49,412 nucleotides of DNA from Aedoeadaptatus coli (GTDB taxonomy: Bacteria; Bacillota; Clostridia; Tissierellales; Peptoniphilaceae). A model generated the notes under the pieces. The model made no database searches. It was not told the DNA's origin and saw only the letters and a list, made by a program, of their open reading frames with translations. The stretch lies in assembly GCF_900343085.1 (NCBI RefSeq), contig NZ_OPYI01000015.1, forward strand, positions 741 to 50,152, written 5' to 3'. Shown here piece after piece: positions 58 through 5,937 of this stretch (position 1 is its first letter; each line of letters opens with the position of its first letter). The position numbers were made by a program, and so were the translations under genes.

Positions 58-1494
58 TAAGGTGGACCCTTTGATTTGGACACGTCAACCCCTATGCGTT
101 GAGCAGTGTCGATCCGTATTCGTATGGTGTCATGTCGCCGAGGCCTTCTTGGTATCGGCGGTAGCGGTAGTAGCTTATGTAATCGGCGACGGCAGCTTCG
201 ATCTCTTGGTCGCTGGCGTTTTCGTCGAATGTTGCTTCTTGTTTCATTTTGCCGAAGAAGGATTCGCAGGGTGCATTATCCCAACAGTTGCCTTTTCTCG
301 ACATGGATTGAATGAGGCCCATGGATTGGATGGTGTCGCGGAATTTTTTCGCGGTGTAGTGGACGCCTTGATCGGAGTGGATGATGGCGTTTTGGCTGTA
401 TCCGCAGGTTTTGAGTTGTTCGAGGGTCTCGAGGACGAAATCGAGGTTGTAGTTTGTGCTGGTTTTGTAGGCGACGGGTTCGTTGGTTTGGGAATCGATG
501 ATGACGGAGACGTAGGAGAAGTGGCCTTGGTGTTTGATGTAGGTGATGTCGGTGAGGAAGAGTTTTCTGGCTTCGCCCGGCTTGAAGGCGCGTTTGACGC
601 GGTTGGGCGCGATTTTGTTTTCTTGGCCGTCGTTTTTTCGTTTGCCGTAGGGTCGGGATTGTTTCACGGGGCAGATGAGTTGGTATTTCCGCATGATGCG
701 TTGGATTTTTTTGCGGTTGTAGATGATGTCGTAGTCGTTTTTCAGGACCATGCGCAGGGAGCGGCTGCCTTTATGGTAGTATTTGCCGCTATGGTCGAAG
801 GCTTTTTGTATGAAGTACAGGGCTTCTCGATCAGCGTCTTCTCTTCGTTGCCGGTTTTCTTTGCTGGCTTTGTAGTAGTAATAGGTGCTTCGCGGCAGAT
901 GAAGGTTTTTGCAAAGGGCTTTAATGTTGACGGCTTTTCCGTAGGTTTCGACGGTGTCTTCTACGATTTTGCAGAGATCAGTCTTTCCATAGGCCTTCTT
1001 GTCGCATCGCCTCCCTCCTAGCCAGCCAGCTTTTTTTAATGCTTCGATCTCCGCAGCTTGTTGCTGAATGATTTTTTCTTGCTTTGCCAGTTTGTCTTTT
1101 GCTTTTCTCATGTCGTCGATGGCGTCAATGGCCTGAAGGGCTTCATTCGCGGCTTCCTGGTCAATTGATGCGAGAATGGTGTCCCGAATGTGGCGTTCTT
1201 TCCAACGTGCAGTGGCCCGTTCGATGCGTTTGTCGCCTAAGATTTCAGGATCGAAGCCGGCCTCGATAAAGATTTGTTTTGGTCGTTTGCCCATGGTAAG
1301 GGCATCGATGAAATGCTTTTTAAATTCGGCCGTATAAAAGACACGATAATCATCGACTGATTCGACATTTGGATTGGCGCGTAAGATGGCTTGCTCTTCA
1401 GTGGTTAGTTTTCCTCGTCCCATGGTTTCCCTCCTTAATTGAATTATACACGATTTGAGGTGGGGGGGATGTCCAAATCTTGGGGACCGGGTTA
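58..1494 (-). mobile_element. IS3-family insertion sequence, IS150-like ends
   Basis: The element is about 1437 bp and carries one transposase gene on the minus strand. Its ends resemble the IS150 group: the left end at 63-82 and the reverse complement of 1470-1489 share GATTTGGACA and a partly matching outer part, with TAAGG and TAACC at the tips. A 3-bp direct repeat TTC at 55-57 and 1495-1497 fits a target-site duplication. The boundaries are inferred from the repeat and duplication and could be off by a few bases. Confidence 0.75.
92..1423 (-). CDS. IS3-family transposase, single reading frame
   Basis: This 443-aa transposase carries out DDE-type cut and strand transfer of its own element. 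The N-terminal 100 residues look like a DNA-binding part, followed by a coiled-coil segment (about 105-132), an HTH_21-like region and an integrase core. Catalytic residues are visible as D292 (LTDITYI), D351 (HSDQGVHY) and E387 (CESFFGKMK). Unlike most IS3 elements it is one uninterrupted frame, not orfA/orfB with a frameshift. The frame looks intact, so the element may be active. Confidence 0.92.
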   Translation of the reverse strand: MGRGKLTTEEQAILRANPNVESVDDYRVFYTAEFKKHFIDALTMGKRPKQIFIEAGFDPEILGDKRIERATARWKERHIRDTILASIDQEAANEALQAIDAIDDMRKAKDKLAKQEKIIQQQAAEIEALKKAGWLGGRRCDKKAYGKTDLCKIVEDTVETYGKAVNIKALCKNLHLPRSTYYYYKASKENRQRREDADREALYFIQKAFDHSGKYYHKGSRSLRMVLKNDYDIIYNRKKIQRIMRKYQLICPVKQSRPYGKRKNDGQENKIAPNRVKRAFKPGEARKLFLTDITYIKHQGHFSYVSVIIDSQTNEPVAYKTSTNYNLDFVLETLEQLKTCGYSQNAIIHSDQGVHYTAKKFRDTIQSMGLIQSMSRKGNCWDNAPCESFFGKMKQEATFDENASDQEIEAAVADYISYYRYRRYQEGLGDMTPYEYGSTLLNA

Positions 1495-1663: not shown

Positions 1664-1709
1664 AAAAATAAGGAAAGGATCGATTCCTCTCGATCCTTTC
1701 CTTATTTTT
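1664..1709. terminator. Bidirectional terminator after the ABC transporter operon
   Basis: A perfect 19-bp inverted repeat (1664-1682 with 1691-1709) with an 8-nt loop is flanked by A and T runs. It overlaps the last base of the stop codon of the binding-protein gene and would end the minus-strand operon. The stretch between this and the IS at 1494 shows no convincing gene. Confidence 0.9.
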
Positions 1710-2563
1710 TAAAAGTCTGCGGGTTTCTCTTCAACCACCATGTCTTCGGGTTTAGCCGCATCGCCGTAGGTGGGGGCGAGGGTTTCTTCAAATGCTTTGG
1801 TGAAGAATTTTTCTCCGTAGAGTTTTTCGATAATTCCGTTCACGCAGTCGAGCATTTCTTTGTTGCCTTTTTTTACGGCGGGGGCGATGTAGTCCACATC
1901 TCCCAGGGTTTTAATGCCCACGTCGTAGCCGTCGTTTTCAAGTGCCCAGGCCAAAACCTCGGTGTTGTCGGTGCTCATGGCGTCGCCGCGGCCGTCTAAG
2001 AGGGCGCTGTAGGCTTCGGCGTATTGGTCGTATTTTTGCAGTTTTACTTCGGGGTGTTTTTCAGTGAAGTAGGTTTCCGCCGTGGTGCCTTTGGAGATGA
2101 TGAGGGTTTTGTCTTTCAGTTGAGAAACGTCGGTGATTTCGCCTTTCGGGGAAACGACGCCCAGGGAGACTTTCATGTAGGGCAGGGCGAAGTCGACTTG
2201 TTCTTTTCGCTCGTCGGTGACGGTGAAGTTGGCGAGCAAGAGGTCGATTTTGTTGGCGTTCAGGTATTCGACGCGGCTTGCGGCTTCCACGGGAATGTAT
2301 TTGACTTTGACGCCCAGTTCTTCGCCGATGCGATCGCCGAGGGCGATGTCGTAGCCTTTAAATTGGCCTTTTTCGTCCATGTAGCCGAAGGGTTTTTTGT
2401 CGCCGAAGACGCCGATGGTGATTTCGCCGGATTTTTTGATTTCGTCGACGGTGCGTACGCCGGCTTTGTCGGCGGCCGGGGCGCCTTCTTCTTCCGCGCC
2501 GCCGCAGGCTACGAGGCCCAGGGCGAGTGTGGCGATCATAAGTACGGTAAGCAGTTTTTTCAT
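1709..2563 (-). CDS. Amino-acid ABC transporter substrate-binding lipoprotein
   Basis: This is an extracellular solute-binding protein of family 3 (SBP_bac_3), 284 aa, that delivers a polar amino acid to the permease pair encoded upstream. The N-terminus has a Lys-Lys start, a hydrophobic stretch and a lipobox LVAC, so Cys20 should be lipidated and the protein anchored to the outer face of the membrane. The body starts with the family-typical pattern GEITIGVFGDKKPFGY. It is the last gene of a four-gene operon, 10 nt after the ATPase gene. The Cys-rich leader upstream of the operon suggests cystine or cysteine as substrate. From the protein alone, glutamate, glutamine or another polar amino acid would be equally possible. 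Confidence 0.93.
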   Translation of the reverse strand: MKKLLTVLMIATLALGLVACGGAEEEGAPAADKAGVRTVDEIKKSGEITIGVFGDKKPFGYMDEKGQFKGYDIALGDRIGEELGVKVKYIPVEAASRVEYLNANKIDLLLANFTVTDERKEQVDFALPYMKVSLGVVSPKGEITDVSQLKDKTLIISKGTTAETYFTEKHPEVKLQKYDQYAEAYSALLDGRGDAMSTDNTEVLAWALENDGYDVGIKTLGDVDYIAPAVKKGNKEMLDCVNGIIEKLYGEKFFTKAFEETLAPTYGDAAKPEDMVVEEKPADF

Positions 2564-2573
2564 TTTGTCCTCC

Positions 2574-3308
2574 TTAGTTGTAATGCAGTCCTTCTAAAAA
2601 TCGGCGGCTTCGTTCGGTGGTCGGGTGCTCGAAAAATTCTTCCGGCCCCGTGTCTTCGATGATGTGGCCTTCTTCCATAAACAAGATGCGATTCGCGACT
2701 TTTCTCGCGAATTCCATCTCGTGGGTGACGATGAGCATGGTTTTTCCCTCTTTGGCCAATTCGCCGACGAGGGATAAGACTTCCTGCACCATTTCCGGGT
2801 CCAGGGCGGCGGTGACTTCGTCGAAGAGGAATATTTCCGGGTCCATGAGCATGGCCCGAAGGATGGCGACGCGCTGTTGCTGGCCGCCGGAGAGGTTTCT
2901 CGGAAAGCTTTGGGCTTTGTCTTTGAGTCCCACCCGATCCAAGAGGGCCAGGGCGCGCTTTTCGGCCTCGGCTTTGTCTTCGCCTTTGGCCTTCACGGGC
3001 CCGAGGGTAAGGTTGTCGAGGACCGTCATGTGGCCGAAGAGTTCGTAGGACTGAAAGACCATGCCGATTTTTTTCCTGACGCCGGGCATGTCTTTTTCTT
3101 CTTTTACGACGCTTTCGCCGTTCAGGAGAATGTCGCCTCCCTGAATTTTTTCCAGGCCGTTGATGCAACGAAGCATGGTGCTTTTGCCGCAGCCCGAGGG
3201 GCCCAGAACGGCGATGACGTCGCCTTTTTCAACGTTTAGGGAAAAGCCGCTGAAGATGGGGGCGCCGTCGTAGGCTTTTACCATGTCTTTTATTTCCAGT
3301 ATGGCCAT
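2574..3308 (-). CDS. Amino-acid ABC transporter ATP-binding protein
   Basis: This is the 244-aa ATPase subunit of a polar amino-acid importer (GlnQ/HisP type). It hydrolyses ATP on the cytoplasmic side of the permeases. Walker A (GPSGCGKST), the signature LSGGQQQR and Walker B ending LFDEVTAALD are all present, followed by the H-loop VTHEME. The start is the ATG at 3306-3308: it follows GGAGG by a normal distance and overlaps the permease stop as TAATG. A longer open frame upstream lies inside the permease gene and has no ribosome binding site. The overlap implies translational coupling. Confidence 0.94.
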   Translation of the reverse strand: MAILEIKDMVKAYDGAPIFSGFSLNVEKGDVIAVLGPSGCGKSTMLRCINGLEKIQGGDILLNGESVVKEEKDMPGVRKKIGMVFQSYELFGHMTVLDNLTLGPVKAKGEDKAEAEKRALALLDRVGLKDKAQSFPRNLSGGQQQRVAILRAMLMDPEIFLFDEVTAALDPEMVQEVLSLVGELAKEGKTMLIVTHEMEFARKVANRILFMEEGHIIEDTGPEEFFEHPTTERSRRFLEGLHYN

Positions 3309-3985
3309 TATGCCTCCTTCCATTTCTTTTCTAAGTGCCCGGCCCATTTGGACAGGGGATAGCAAACCAAAAAGTATAAAATCAAGATGACGAGGTAGAT
3401 CCAAAGGGCCGCGGAGGCGAATTCCAGCCGCACGGCTTCCACGATTTGTTGCCCGGTTTTGATGACTTCCACGACGCCGATGAGGGCGATGAGGGAGGTG
3501 GTTTTGATCATGCGGGTCACGAGGTTCATGGCCTGGGGTATGAGGCGGCGAAGTGCTTGTGGAAGCACGACGTAGCCCATGACCTGAAGGCGGGTGAGGC
3601 CGATGGATTGGGCGGCTTCGTATTGGTGTTTCGGAATGGATGAGATGGCGCCGCGGACGAGATCGCCCATTTCCGCCGTGCCCCAGAGGGTGAAGACGAT
3701 GATGGCGGCGTTAAATCCCGAGATATGCACGCCCAGGGCCCGCGCCATGCCGAAGTAGACGATAAAGAGGAGCACGAGTTGGGGCATGAGGCGCATGAAT
3801 TCCAAGTAGATTTTCGAAAGGATTTTGATGACCGGGGATTTTTTGGTCATGGTCCAGCCGAATACGAGGCCGAAGAGGATGGAGAGGGCCACGGAGATGA
3901 GAGACACGCGCAGGGTAACGGAGAGGCCTTTCAGGAGTCTTGTGATTGTATGTGGATTAAGCAATAGCGCTTGTGCCGATGCCAC
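3308..3985 (-). CDS. Amino-acid ABC transporter permease, second
   Basis: This is a membrane subunit of the polar amino-acid importer (HisM/GlnP family), about 225 aa with several TM helices. The cytoplasmic EAA loop (EAAQSIGLTRLQVMGYVVLPQAL region) docks to the ATPase. The start is a GTG at 3983-3985, chosen because a perfect AAAGGAGG sits 7 nt upstream. The frame stays open to a TTG at 4003, but that codon lies before the ribosome binding site. It overlaps the end of the preceding permease gene by 29 nt and the ATPase start by 1 nt, so the three genes are probably coupled. Confidence 0.92.
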   Translation of the reverse strand: MASAQALLLNPHTITRLLKGLSVTLRVSLISVALSILFGLVFGWTMTKKSPVIKILSKIYLEFMRLMPQLVLLFIVYFGMARALGVHISGFNAAIIVFTLWGTAEMGDLVRGAISSIPKHQYEAAQSIGLTRLQVMGYVVLPQALRRLIPQAMNLVTRMIKTTSLIALIGVVEVIKTGQQIVEAVRLEFASAALWIYLVILILYFLVCYPLSKWAGHLEKKWKEA

Positions 3986-4625
3986 GTCGCATCCTCCTTT
4001 CAAGCAGGCTGAAGATCACGGCTACGGGAACCAGGATCACCAGGTAAGATAAGACCAAGAGCAAGAGGGCTTCGTCGGTTTCGTAGTAGATGCCGATTAA
4101 GTCTTTTGCCACGTACATAAGATCCGCCAGGGCCACGGCGCTGAAGACGGAGGTTTCTTTCAAGAGAAAGATGGTGTTGGCGCCCAAAGAGGGGATGGCG
4201 ATGGCCAATGCCTGGGGCAGGACGACGTGGCGGATGCGCTGGTGCTTGGTGAGGCCGATGGCCATGGCCGCTTCGATCTGCCGCACATCCACGGCTTCGA
4301 TGCCGGAGCGGAAGGACTCAGCCATGTAGCTTGCCCCGAGAAAGATCAGGCCCACGATGGCACAGGCTTCCGAGGAGAGGACGATGCCGATCTTCGGCAG
4401 GCCGAAGTAGAGAAAAAACAATTGAATCAACAGGGGGGTATTTCTGGAGATTTCTATGTAGGCTTTGGCCAAGCCGTTTAGGACGGGGACTTTTTCCACC
4501 CGAATAAAGGCGAGGATGAGCCCCAAGAGGACGGATCCCGCCACTCCGATGAGCCCGATAGACAGGGTGAGCTTCGCCGCCGCGGCGTACTGCGGCAGCA
4601 TGGCCACGAGAAATTCTCGGTTCAT
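3957..4625 (-). CDS. Amino-acid ABC transporter permease, first
   Basis: This is the first structural gene of the operon, a 222-aa integral membrane permease of the HisM/GlnP family. It pairs with the second permease to form the translocation path. The EAA loop is seen at IEAAMAIGLTKHQRIRHVVLP. The ATG at 4623-4625 is preceded by AAAGGAG at 6-nt spacing. The ribosome binding site begins only about 10 nt after the T-run of the attenuator terminator at 4645-4670, so expression of the operon depends on reading through that terminator. Confidence 0.93.
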   Translation of the reverse strand: MNREFLVAMLPQYAAAAKLTLSIGLIGVAGSVLLGLILAFIRVEKVPVLNGLAKAYIEISRNTPLLIQLFFLYFGLPKIGIVLSSEACAIVGLIFLGASYMAESFRSGIEAVDVRQIEAAMAIGLTKHQRIRHVVLPQALAIAIPSLGANTIFLLKETSVFSAVALADLMYVAKDLIGIYYETDEALLLLVLSYLVILVPVAVIFSLLERRMRRGIGTSAIA

Positions 4626-4644: not shown

Positions 4645-4670
4645 ATAAAAAAGCGAGCCGAAGCCCGCTT
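4645..4670 (-). terminator. Attenuator terminator in front of the ABC operon
   Basis: Read on the minus strand, an 8-bp stem (4663-4670 with 4651-4658, one G-U pair) is closed by a UUCG tetraloop and followed by a T-rich run ending at 4645. It lies between the leader peptide stop and the first permease start, inside the transcript. Its 5' arm (GCGGGC, 4668 to 4663) can instead pair with GCCTGC at 4734 to 4729 in the leader gene, which would prevent termination. Confidence 0.9.
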
Positions 4671-4784
4671 CAAGATGCCTATGGAAAATAACAATCAGGA
4701 CAAAACCATGTCGTTTCCCAACATCTGCGCAGGCAAATAACCCGTACAACAACAGGTACAGGAACAAGCACATTTGCAGATGCT
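4663..4784 (-). promoter_or_regulatory. Alternative helices of the cysteine attenuator
   Basis: Three competing pairings can be read directly on the minus strand. Helix 1:2 pairs 4784-4776 with 4728-4720 (9 bp, one G-U) and includes the first Cys codon. Helix 2:3 pairs 4734-4729 with 4668-4663 and 4726-4720 with 4679-4673 (13 bp around a small internal loop). Helix 3:4 is the terminator at 4651-4670. A ribosome held at the Cys codons would mask segment 1, favour 2:3 and let transcription continue. If it is not held, 3:4 can form. The stop codon lies past segment 2, which differs from the classical trp layout. The model is inference; the base pairing is read from the sequence. Confidence 0.8.
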
Positions 4785-4802
4785 TTGGAATAAGGTGTTC
4801 AT
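4695..4802 (-). CDS. Cys-rich leader peptide (35 aa)
   Basis: This is a short gene starting with ATG at 4800-4802 and ending in TGA at 4695-4697. It is preceded by AAAAGGAG at 5-nt spacing and a consensus promoter. The peptide has 7 Cys among residues 9-19 (CKCACSCTCCC; six TGT codons and one TGC). The remainder is unremarkable, with no second domain and no membrane segment. Its position just before an intrinsic terminator and a transporter operon is that of an attenuation leader: ribosome speed over the Cys run would report charged Cys-tRNA. A metal-binding or secreted Cys-rich peptide is the main alternative, but it does not explain the competing helices. Confidence 0.88.
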   Translation of the reverse strand: MNTLFQSICKCACSCTCCCTGYLPAQMLGNDMVLS

Positions 4803-4826
4803 GGTTTCTCCTTTTGATTTTTTCTT

Positions 4827-4855
4827 ATCATAACACGGCACCCTTGCCTTGTCAA
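4827..4855 (-). promoter_or_regulatory. Consensus sigma-A promoter of the leader and ABC operon
   Basis: On the minus strand, TTGACA (4850-4855), a 17-nt spacer and TATGAT (4827-4832) form a near-perfect housekeeping promoter. Transcription would start near 4820, about 18 nt before the leader peptide ATG. Such a strong promoter followed by a conditional terminator fits control at elongation, not initiation. Confidence 0.9.
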
Positions 4856-4886
4856 ACCAATTTACTCTGATTTGTCCTTTTTCGGA

Positions 4887-5921
4887 CTAAAGTGTTTCTT
4901 TCAAAAGACCTTCGAGTAGCCGGATGGCCCCGTCGATTTCATCTTTCGTCGTGTTGTAATCGGTGACGAAGCGCACAGGCACGGTTCCGTCTTCTTTCGG
5001 GCCCATAATGTCGAATTGGCCGTGTTTTTCCAGTTCGTCGGCCACAGCTTTCGGCAGGCGAATAAATAACTGATTGCTCTCGGGGGGATAGATAAATTCC
5101 ACGTCCAGGTAGGCGAGTTCTCGGGCGAGGTAGCTCGCGGCCCGATTGGCGGCGCGGCCGTTTTCGAAGAAGAGGTCGTCGGTGAAGAGGGCTTCGTACT
5201 GGGCGCCCAGGGTAAAGCCTTTGGCCATCAAGAGGGCACGCTGTTTTTGGAAGTAGATAAATTCCCGGGCCAGGTCTTCGCTTTTAAAGACCAGGGCTTC
5301 GCCGAAGAGGGCGCCGTTTTTCGTGCCGCCGACGGAAAAGATATCGGCGTAGTTCATGTATTCGGAAAGCTTCACGTCGTTGACCTCGCTTGTGAGGGCG
5401 CTGGCCATGCGGGCGCCGTCGATATAGACGGGGAGATTGTATTTATCCGCCACTTTTTTAATGGCGGCGAGCTCTTCTTTTCGGTAGACGAGGCCGGTTT
5501 CCGTGGTGTTTGAGAGGTAGATGATGCCGGGGAGGACATTGTGGAAGTCGCCGAAGGAGGCGATGAATTCGTCGAGGGCCTGGGGATCGTATTTGCCGGC
5601 TTCGGTTTTCACGGTGACCACTTTGTGGCCCGCCGCTTCCATGGCGCCCACTTCGTGTCCCACCACGTGGCCCAGATCAGCACTTACGATGGCTTCGTGG
5701 GGGCGGAGGTGGAAGGTGAGGGCCAGGACATTGGCCGCCGTGCCGCCGTGGACGAAGTGTACGGGGTAGTCGCCCCCTGCAGCTTCCTGAATCAGGCGCG
5801 TGGCCCGCTCCGTGTGGGGATCGAAGCCGTAGCCCATATTTCCCTCGCCGTCGGTGGCGGCCAGTGCTTTCAATACATTCGGATGGCATAAATCGTGGTA
5901 GTCGTTTCTGAAATTAAACAT
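4887..5921 (-). CDS. Low-specificity L-threonine aldolase
   Basis: This PLP enzyme of fold type I (344 aa) splits L-threonine or allo-threonine into glycine and acetaldehyde. It shows HGGTAAN for phosphate binding, the LSNTTETG motif, D168 in YIDGARMASAL, and the PLP lysine K201 in SVGGTKNG. The ATG at 5919-5921 is favoured over the in-frame GTG at 5927, because the AAAAGGGG ribosome binding site abuts that GTG and leaves proper spacing only for the ATG. It is transcribed away from the aminotransferase gene at 5988 with a TATAAT box in the shared spacer. The gene lies just upstream of the Cys-leader promoter, in the same direction but as a separate unit. Confidence 0.92.
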   Translation of the reverse strand: MFNFRNDYHDLCHPNVLKALAATDGEGNMGYGFDPHTERATRLIQEAAGGDYPVHFVHGGTAANVLALTFHLRPHEAIVSADLGHVVGHEVGAMEAAGHKVVTVKTEAGKYDPQALDEFIASFGDFHNVLPGIIYLSNTTETGLVYRKEELAAIKKVADKYNLPVYIDGARMASALTSEVNDVKLSEYMNYADIFSVGGTKNGALFGEALVFKSEDLAREFIYFQKQRALLMAKGFTLGAQYEALFTDDLFFENGRAANRAASYLARELAYLDVEFIYPPESNQLFIRLPKAVADELEKHGQFDIMGPKEDGTVPVRFVTDYNTTKDEIDGAIRLLEGLLKETL

Positions 5922-5937
5922 AGGCACCCCTTTTTCA

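Follow-up and report, generated by a model that had tools for sequence, protein, structure and literature searches.

The window, a stretch of 49,412 nucleotides from Aedoeadaptatus coli (family Peptoniphilaceae; genome of 1.99 Mb), carried on its minus strand a promoter, a short Cys-rich open reading frame (ORF), a series of RNA helices and an amino-acid ABC transporter operon in the order permease, permease, ATPase and substrate-binding protein. An intrinsic terminator sat between the leader ORF and the first structural gene. The features of the locus are listed below.

4850-4871, minus strand: operator-like box ATCAGAGTAAATTGGTTTGACA, overlapping the -35 element and alike at the equivalent place in 8 genus members
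4827-4855, minus strand: sigma-70-type promoter TTGACA-17-TATGAT with 11 of 12 consensus matches and TG before the -10 (extended -10), similar in the genus
4695-4802, minus strand: leader peptide ORF of 35 codons with 7 Cys codons (ATG at 4802, TGA at 4697-4695), with protein matches in the genus
4776-4784, minus strand: segment 1, AGCATCTGC, pairing with 4728-4720 and containing the first Cys codon (4778-4776)
4741-4762, minus strand: Cys-run hairpin H1, CCTGTAC-CTGTTGTT-GTACGGG, from hairpin scan and fold, with compensatory changes in relatives
4720-4734, minus strand: segment 2, GCCTGCGCAGATGTT, within the ORF and near-invariant as DNA across the genus
4663-4679, minus strand: segment 3, shared by the antiterminator (as its 3' half) and the terminator (as its 5' arm), from its pairing with segment 2
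4647-4671, minus strand: intrinsic terminator, hairpin 3:4 (4671-4650) with T-run, in 8 of 8 genus members
3957-4625, minus strand: amino-acid ABC permease 1 (PF00528; HEQRo_perm_3TM above cut-off)
3308-3985, minus strand: amino-acid ABC permease 2 (PF00528), GTG start assumed from Shine-Dalgarno (SD) sequence and frame
2574-3308, minus strand: ABC ATPase (PF00005; GlnQ/TcyN-like NCBIfam profiles below cut-offs), start set by SD and frame
1709-2563, minus strand: family 3 substrate-binding protein (PF00497), predicted L-cysteine receptor, nearest PDB chains 1xt8 and 2yjp

A beta-eliminating lyase gene (PF01212) was located just before the leader promoter on the same strand (4887-5927). Directly after the transporter operon was a transposase ORF (rve and HTH_21; 92-1423, minus strand), which we take to be IS3-type by its domains.

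An earlier reading of the DNA, made from the sequence alone, had proposed a cysteine-sensing attenuator ahead of an amino-acid ABC operon, and Pfam bore out the operon downstream of the terminator, with its permeases, ATPase and family 3 binding protein. The binding protein matched the PDB chains 1xt8 (Campylobacter CjaA, E 1.5e-84) and 2yjp (Neisseria, E 5e-80), with the third match at 3e-36, and NCBIfam receptor profiles (cystine, arginine and others) matched it below cut-offs only. Both chains are tabulated with cysteine as ligand in the part of PMC9824665 consulted, and a passage of PMC4178425 describes CjaA as binding cysteine, its part in import being not proven. With cysteine receptors as its two nearest PDB chains, the binding protein is predicted to take cysteine as substrate, and the downstream operon would handle the amino acid that the leader is proposed to sense.

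The consensus promoter claimed ahead of the leader was found at 4855-4827 and ranked best among the 4 promoter-like sites of a 9-kb stretch (shuffle mean 5.2). From the position of the -10, transcription would probably start near 4820. The operator-like box at 4850-4871 is perhaps a second, protein-based control layer. Its version in the metagenome-assembled genome (MAG) SUG1768 was AATTCATACTAAATTAGTTTGACA, and the words AATTCATAT, ATAGTATGA and GATAGGAAA were enriched upstream of the operon in 41 representative upstream regions.

The leader ORF encoded MNTLFQSICKCACSCTCCCTGYLPAQMLGNDMVLS, with Cys at codons 9, 11, 13, 15, 17, 18 and 19 (7 Cys within residues 9-19), and the SD sequence AAAGGAG (4814-4808) lay immediately 5' of it. 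The locus thus had the short ORF, initiation signals and one-codon run of an attenuator leader, as the sequence-only reading had described them, and the ORF is predicted to be translated. No Pfam or NCBIfam family matched it. A search of the window's genome with the pattern TGYNNNTGYTGYTGY, which is blind to other Cys spacings, gave 8 matches against 21 in a backward control, and only one of the 8, the window's own match, was preceded by an ATG with SD and followed by a terminator. A cysK profile match above cut-off was present in 8 of 8 genus genomes, and no ORF of 6-60 codons with at least 3 Cys in 12 was found within 600 nt before cysK in 2 of these 8 (G000, the window's own, and G007).

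Helices 1:2 (9 bp), 2:3 (13 bp) and 3:4 had been proposed as mutually exclusive, and all three were recovered at the claimed coordinates. Helix 1:2 paired 4784-4776 (AGCATCTGC) with 4728-4720 (GCAGATGTT) through 9 pairs, one of them G.U, and segment 1 contained the first Cys codon as claimed. Helix 2:3 paired 4734-4720 with 4679-4663 through 13 pairs in two blocks (GCCTGC:GCGGGC and AGATGTT:GGCATCT). The first base of the last Cys codon (4748) preceded the start of segment 2 by 14 nt, and this distance was 13 in five and 16 in one of 6 genus leaders tested (one unpaired base counted). The stop codon was indeed downstream of segment 2, starting 23 nt beyond its end. Folding of the minus-strand leader RNA, which had been suggested as a check, gave -59.4 kcal/mol for 4821-4640 against -43.3 (sd 3.75) for 200 dinucleotide shuffles (z -4.3), none of which was as stable (0 of 200). 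The predicted fold consisted of helix 1:2 and the terminator.

The 8 genus genomes comprised the window's own and those of Aedoeadaptatus pacaensis, A. urinae, A. ivorii, Peptoniphilus rachelemmaiella, P. nemausensis, the MAG SUG1768 and G001. A protein search recovered the leader in all 8, and the terminator was likewise present in all 8, so that the Cys run and terminator predicted upstream of homologous operons were kept throughout the genus. An alignment of 7 genus species showed 3-base indels at the Cys run, and LPAQM was kept across the 8 leaders. A close permease (E 1e-40 or better) was present in 11 of 130 family genomes; 8 of the 11 were the genus members, all with leader and terminator. 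The non-genus leaders in the family were those of KCTC25270 (L011, on a contig shared with L055) with 6 Cys in 12 codons, G115 with 4, and G071 (L010) with 2 Cys in a Ser-rich run (ASCSSCSSLSSGSG) and a re-paired antiterminator. All three had a terminator. The Ser-rich leader perhaps marks a shift in what is sensed.

The co-varying helices that the sequence-only reading had proposed looking for were found in 2:3 and H1. One G-C pair of helix 2:3 (GCAGATG with CATCT in the window) was A-U in P. nemausensis and G001 (GCAAATG with CATTT) and in SUG1768 (with CATT), that is in 3 of 8 species, which is perhaps a single event. In KCTC25270 and G071, which belong to other genera, helix 2:3 was re-paired with different bases, and segment 2 paired with its own segment 3 at -14.3 and -13.5, respectively, against -6.7 to -10.6 with those of other species. 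The antiterminator, which excludes the terminator, thus showed one compensatory pair within the genus and re-paired helices in two relatives. Inside the genus, 2:3 energies did not favour own pairs: segment 2 of ivorii, G001 and P. nemausensis paired equally well or better with some foreign segment 3, and genus segments 2 reached -14.2 with the segment 3 of KCTC25270.

In H1, the closing C-G pair was G-C in P. nemausensis and G001, and SUG1768 was without a closing pair. An inner C-G was U-A in ivorii and KCTC25270, the next pair being C-G in one and G-C in the other. G071 had a different hairpin at this place, with one mismatch. The 5' arms of P. nemausensis/G001 and of G071 paired clearly best with their own 3' arms. 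Helix 1:2 carried a C.A mismatch in SUG1768, P. nemausensis and G001 (3 of 8). The three-helix scheme was therefore upheld for 2:3, which is backed by paired changes, and needs revision in that 1:2 is mismatched in these species and the better-covarying H1 had been omitted.

Few parts of the 7-species genus alignment varied as little as segment 2 and the 3' arm of H1. In each of the 28 genus pairs, 3 or 4 of the 4 L-P-A-Q codons of segment 2 were identical, compared with 40-87% of same-residue codons in the adjacent permease, which points to selection on the RNA, four codons being few.

A duplex test of the antiterminator against shuffles gave p of at most 0.03 in 4 of 24 leaders across clades, and p 0.15 for the window. 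Because this test was mostly not significant, a ribosome-position model with shuffles was used. The model folds only the RNA past the leading edge of the ribosome, taken to lie 15 nt 3' of the first base of the A-site codon, and returns the chance that upstream RNA holds the terminator 5' arm before the 3' arm (segment 4) exists. For the window this value lay between 0.62 and 0.75 for all 7 Cys-codon positions of the ribosome, and was 0.21 both for a ribosome at the stop and for ribosome-free RNA. The E. coli trp leader in the identical model gave 0.71 when stalled, 0.17 at the stop and 0.06 without a ribosome. In full-length equilibrium folding, the terminator was favoured at nearly all ribosome positions and the antiterminator reached at most 0.37 (Cys15). 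The terminator also wins at equilibrium for trp, and the switch must therefore rest on kinetics.

In the shuffle test (20 sequences, 50 shuffles per leader, two stall positions), the stall value minus the larger of the stop and ribosome-free values was matched by 0 of 50 shuffles for the window, trp and Lacrimispora L064 and for L076, by 1 of 50 for ivorii, L. algidixylanolytica and Avacidaminococcus, and by 2 of 50 for urinae. The other 12 of the 20 sequences gave unremarkable values of this measure (p 0.08 to 1.0). Stall minus stop was matched by at most 2 of 50 for trp, G071, L074, Lacrimispora L064 and L069. For the window, the stall value alone (matched by 26 of 50) and stall minus stop (10 of 50) were ordinary, and it was exceptional only in the measure that includes the ribosome-free state. 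The Herbinix and L044 leaders showed no switch, and both Anaerocolumna leaders behaved in the wrong direction. In these two (L031 and L057), a long antiterminator partner (TTTTACGGAAT region with ATTCCGTAAGCAG) was located where the Cys run ends; a ribosome late in the run would therefore block the pairing, opposite to trp in the model.

Relatives of the permease were scanned in named genomes, and the best 80 of 526 loci were taken, 79 of which were usable. Within the 430 nt upstream of the operon, 24 of the 79 loci carried a Cys-dense ORF, defined by 4 or more Cys in 12 codons; 6 of the 24 were genus-mates of the window. Chance expectation, from 20 shuffles of each locus, was 1.25 of 79, and the reverse strand had such an ORF at none of the 79. 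At a threshold of at least 5 Cys in 12, the count was 19 loci against 0.15 expected. When an SD and a terminator were required as well, a search of both strands of all 80 loci (up to 7.7 kb each) found 17 ORFs with at least 4 Cys in 12, all of them at most 430 nt before the operon, together with 5 further ORFs with 3 Cys. Leader runs included CCFCCRCFARRD (Lacrimispora), SCCCMCIFC (Anaerocolumna), TCCCKCCSC (Herbinix) and MLCCCCCC (Avacidaminococcus). None of 19 Streptococcus and 8 spirochaete loci among the best 80 of 526 reached 4 Cys.

Operons without a Cys leader made up 55 of the 79 near loci and 29 of 30 loci in broader class and phylum samples, where a Cys-dense leader was present in 1 of 30 (two of the 30 having less than 350 nt of upstream DNA). 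The proportions of 24 of 79 near and 1 of 30 farther out indicate that the trait is frequent near this transporter clade and rare beyond it. On a tree of 64 permeases, the Cys-leader trait needed at least 10 changes, compared with 19.6 for shuffled labels, and differing leader peptides stood on scattered branches. Attenuator behaviour in the duplex test and the ribosome model was negative or not clear-cut in several distant lineages.

A T-box or other Rfam element as regulator was rejected, as none was present at the locus. RF00230 (T-box) had no match in the window, and the sole Rfam match there above the gathering score was a tRNA elsewhere. The window's genome had 9 T-box matches at E 0.001 or better on other contigs, 2 of them above the family cut-off. 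Among relatives, 17 with leaders had no Rfam match above the gathering score, and no T-box was found at 19 loci, 15 of them without a Cys leader.

Very probably, the locus works by ribosome-mediated transcription attenuation, with the supply of charged tRNA-Cys as its signal and a CjaA-type cysteine ABC importer under its control. The proposal of a Cys attenuator was thus strengthened by the Cys run and terminator in 8 of 8 genus genomes, the cysteine-type transporter, the paired changes in 2:3 and H1 and the trp-like modelled folding. We infer that the ORF is translated, that the ribosome stalls on it and that the operon responds to cysteine in the direction given here. When cysteine is ample, the ribosome would pass the Cys codons and reach the stop; the ribosome, together with H1 and (in most species) helix 1:2, would prevent segment 2 from pairing with segment 3, and RNA polymerase would be halted by the 3:4 terminator ahead of the transporter genes. 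When Cys-tRNA is short, the ribosome would stall on the Cys run with its leading edge just upstream of segment 2, masking or melting segment 1 and H1. Segment 2 could then pair with segment 3 before segment 4 is made, the terminator would not form and the operon would be transcribed.

The ORF could instead encode a small Cys-rich protein that binds metal or thiols and functions alongside the transporter, the terminator only setting the expression level. Its high Cys content and its retention across the genus would suit such a protein, but the number and spacing of Cys differ by lineage (MLCCCCCC, SCCCMCIFC, ICKCACSCTCCC), the residues after the run track RNA pairing, the four codons tested being constrained at their synonymous sites, and no Pfam or NCBIfam family matches. 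The placement of all 17 Cys-dense ORFs with SD and terminator (best 80 of 526 loci) no farther than 430 nt upstream of the operon also speaks against it, and a protein function is highly improbable. Least probable is a TnaC-like arrest peptide, whose conserved TGYLPAQM-like end would stall the ribosome in response to cysteine or some other small molecule. All 8 genus leaders do retain LPAQM, but the TGYLPAQM stretch is encoded by the DNA of the H1 3' arm and segment 2, and in other genera this peptide end is lost (SYGFLAC in KCTC25270, GSGVFGLH in G071) while the pairing is kept.

Cysteine control in Firmicutes is often exerted by CymR-type repressors, and a DNA-binding repressor at the box 4871-4850 might be the true cysteine sensor, with the leader providing only general transcription-translation polarity. 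Retention of the box over the -35 in the genus agrees with this. The Cys-dense leaders of other lineages and the paired changes in 2:3 and H1 are left unexplained by it, however, and a repressor as the true sensor is very unlikely. A repressor layer and the attenuator layer may coexist.

On balance, it seems likely that Cys-codon attenuators have arisen or diverged repeatedly in Bacillota before one CjaA-type importer, with dissimilar peptides and terminators and a shared logic, in Peptoniphilaceae, Lachnospiraceae (Lacrimispora, Anaerocolumna) and Acidaminococcaceae, and that in Aedoeadaptatus, which has T-boxes elsewhere in its genomes, the Cys run is also a hairpin that the ribosome must open. 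A switch on a cysteine importer that is read by the ribosome would give anaerobic Bacillota, better known for T-boxes and repressors, a direct and readily testable cysteine sensor. It also suggests repeated wiring of a single transporter to leader peptides, and with it a set of natural variants in which to study attenuator evolution.

The mechanism itself is already known, and cysteine leaders have already been reported in Actinobacteria and Rhodobacterales. Mycobacteria reportedly have cysteine-responsive attenuators with leaderless ORFs, by the title of a 2020 study by Canestrari. Going by that title and by passages of PMC1262725, the window's leader falls outside the mycobacterial leaderless polycysteine class, as it has an SD and a terminator. 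The sections of Seliverstov 2005 (PMC1262725) consulted describe Cys-run leader peptides before cys and cbs genes in Actinobacteria and state that Mycobacterium leaders have no conserved terminator hairpins, and a passage of PMC13236596 gives translation attenuation for M. smegmatis. Short Cys-run ORFs ahead of cysteine genes are common to these systems and the window, whereas the window has an SD, an intrinsic terminator and a transporter as target. The Rhodobacterales uORFC-8-2 before cysS has tandem Cys codons and an intrinsic terminator, with predicted ribosome-mediated attenuation (passage in PMC8632094). It resembles the window in its Cys-codon uORF and terminator and, by description only, is set apart by its occurrence in Alphaproteobacteria, its two Cys codons and its tRNA synthetase target.

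The sequence-only reading had held that cysteine leaders are not an established feature of Firmicutes. This stands in that no report of cysteine leader peptides in Firmicutes/Bacillota was found among the papers listed in searches of an open-access literature that lacks most subscription papers, but leader-peptide attenuation itself has been reported there for Leu and His, as passages describe for S. aureus ilv (Leu; PMC5794164) and for His in bacilli (PMC2965389) and further lineages (PMC9413887). Those attenuators share with the window a leader peptide and terminator in organisms where T-boxes are common, and differ in their amino acids and operons.

The E. coli trp attenuator, with its textbook features, is alike in its leader ORF with regulatory codons, in the choice between 2:3 and 3:4 and in its similar response to ribosome position in the model. 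It differs in using Trp codons ahead of a biosynthetic operon, whereas the window uses Cys codons ahead of an importer. Unlike trp, the window has its segment 2 inside the ORF, with the stop 23 nt beyond, and its Cys run is itself a covarying hairpin.
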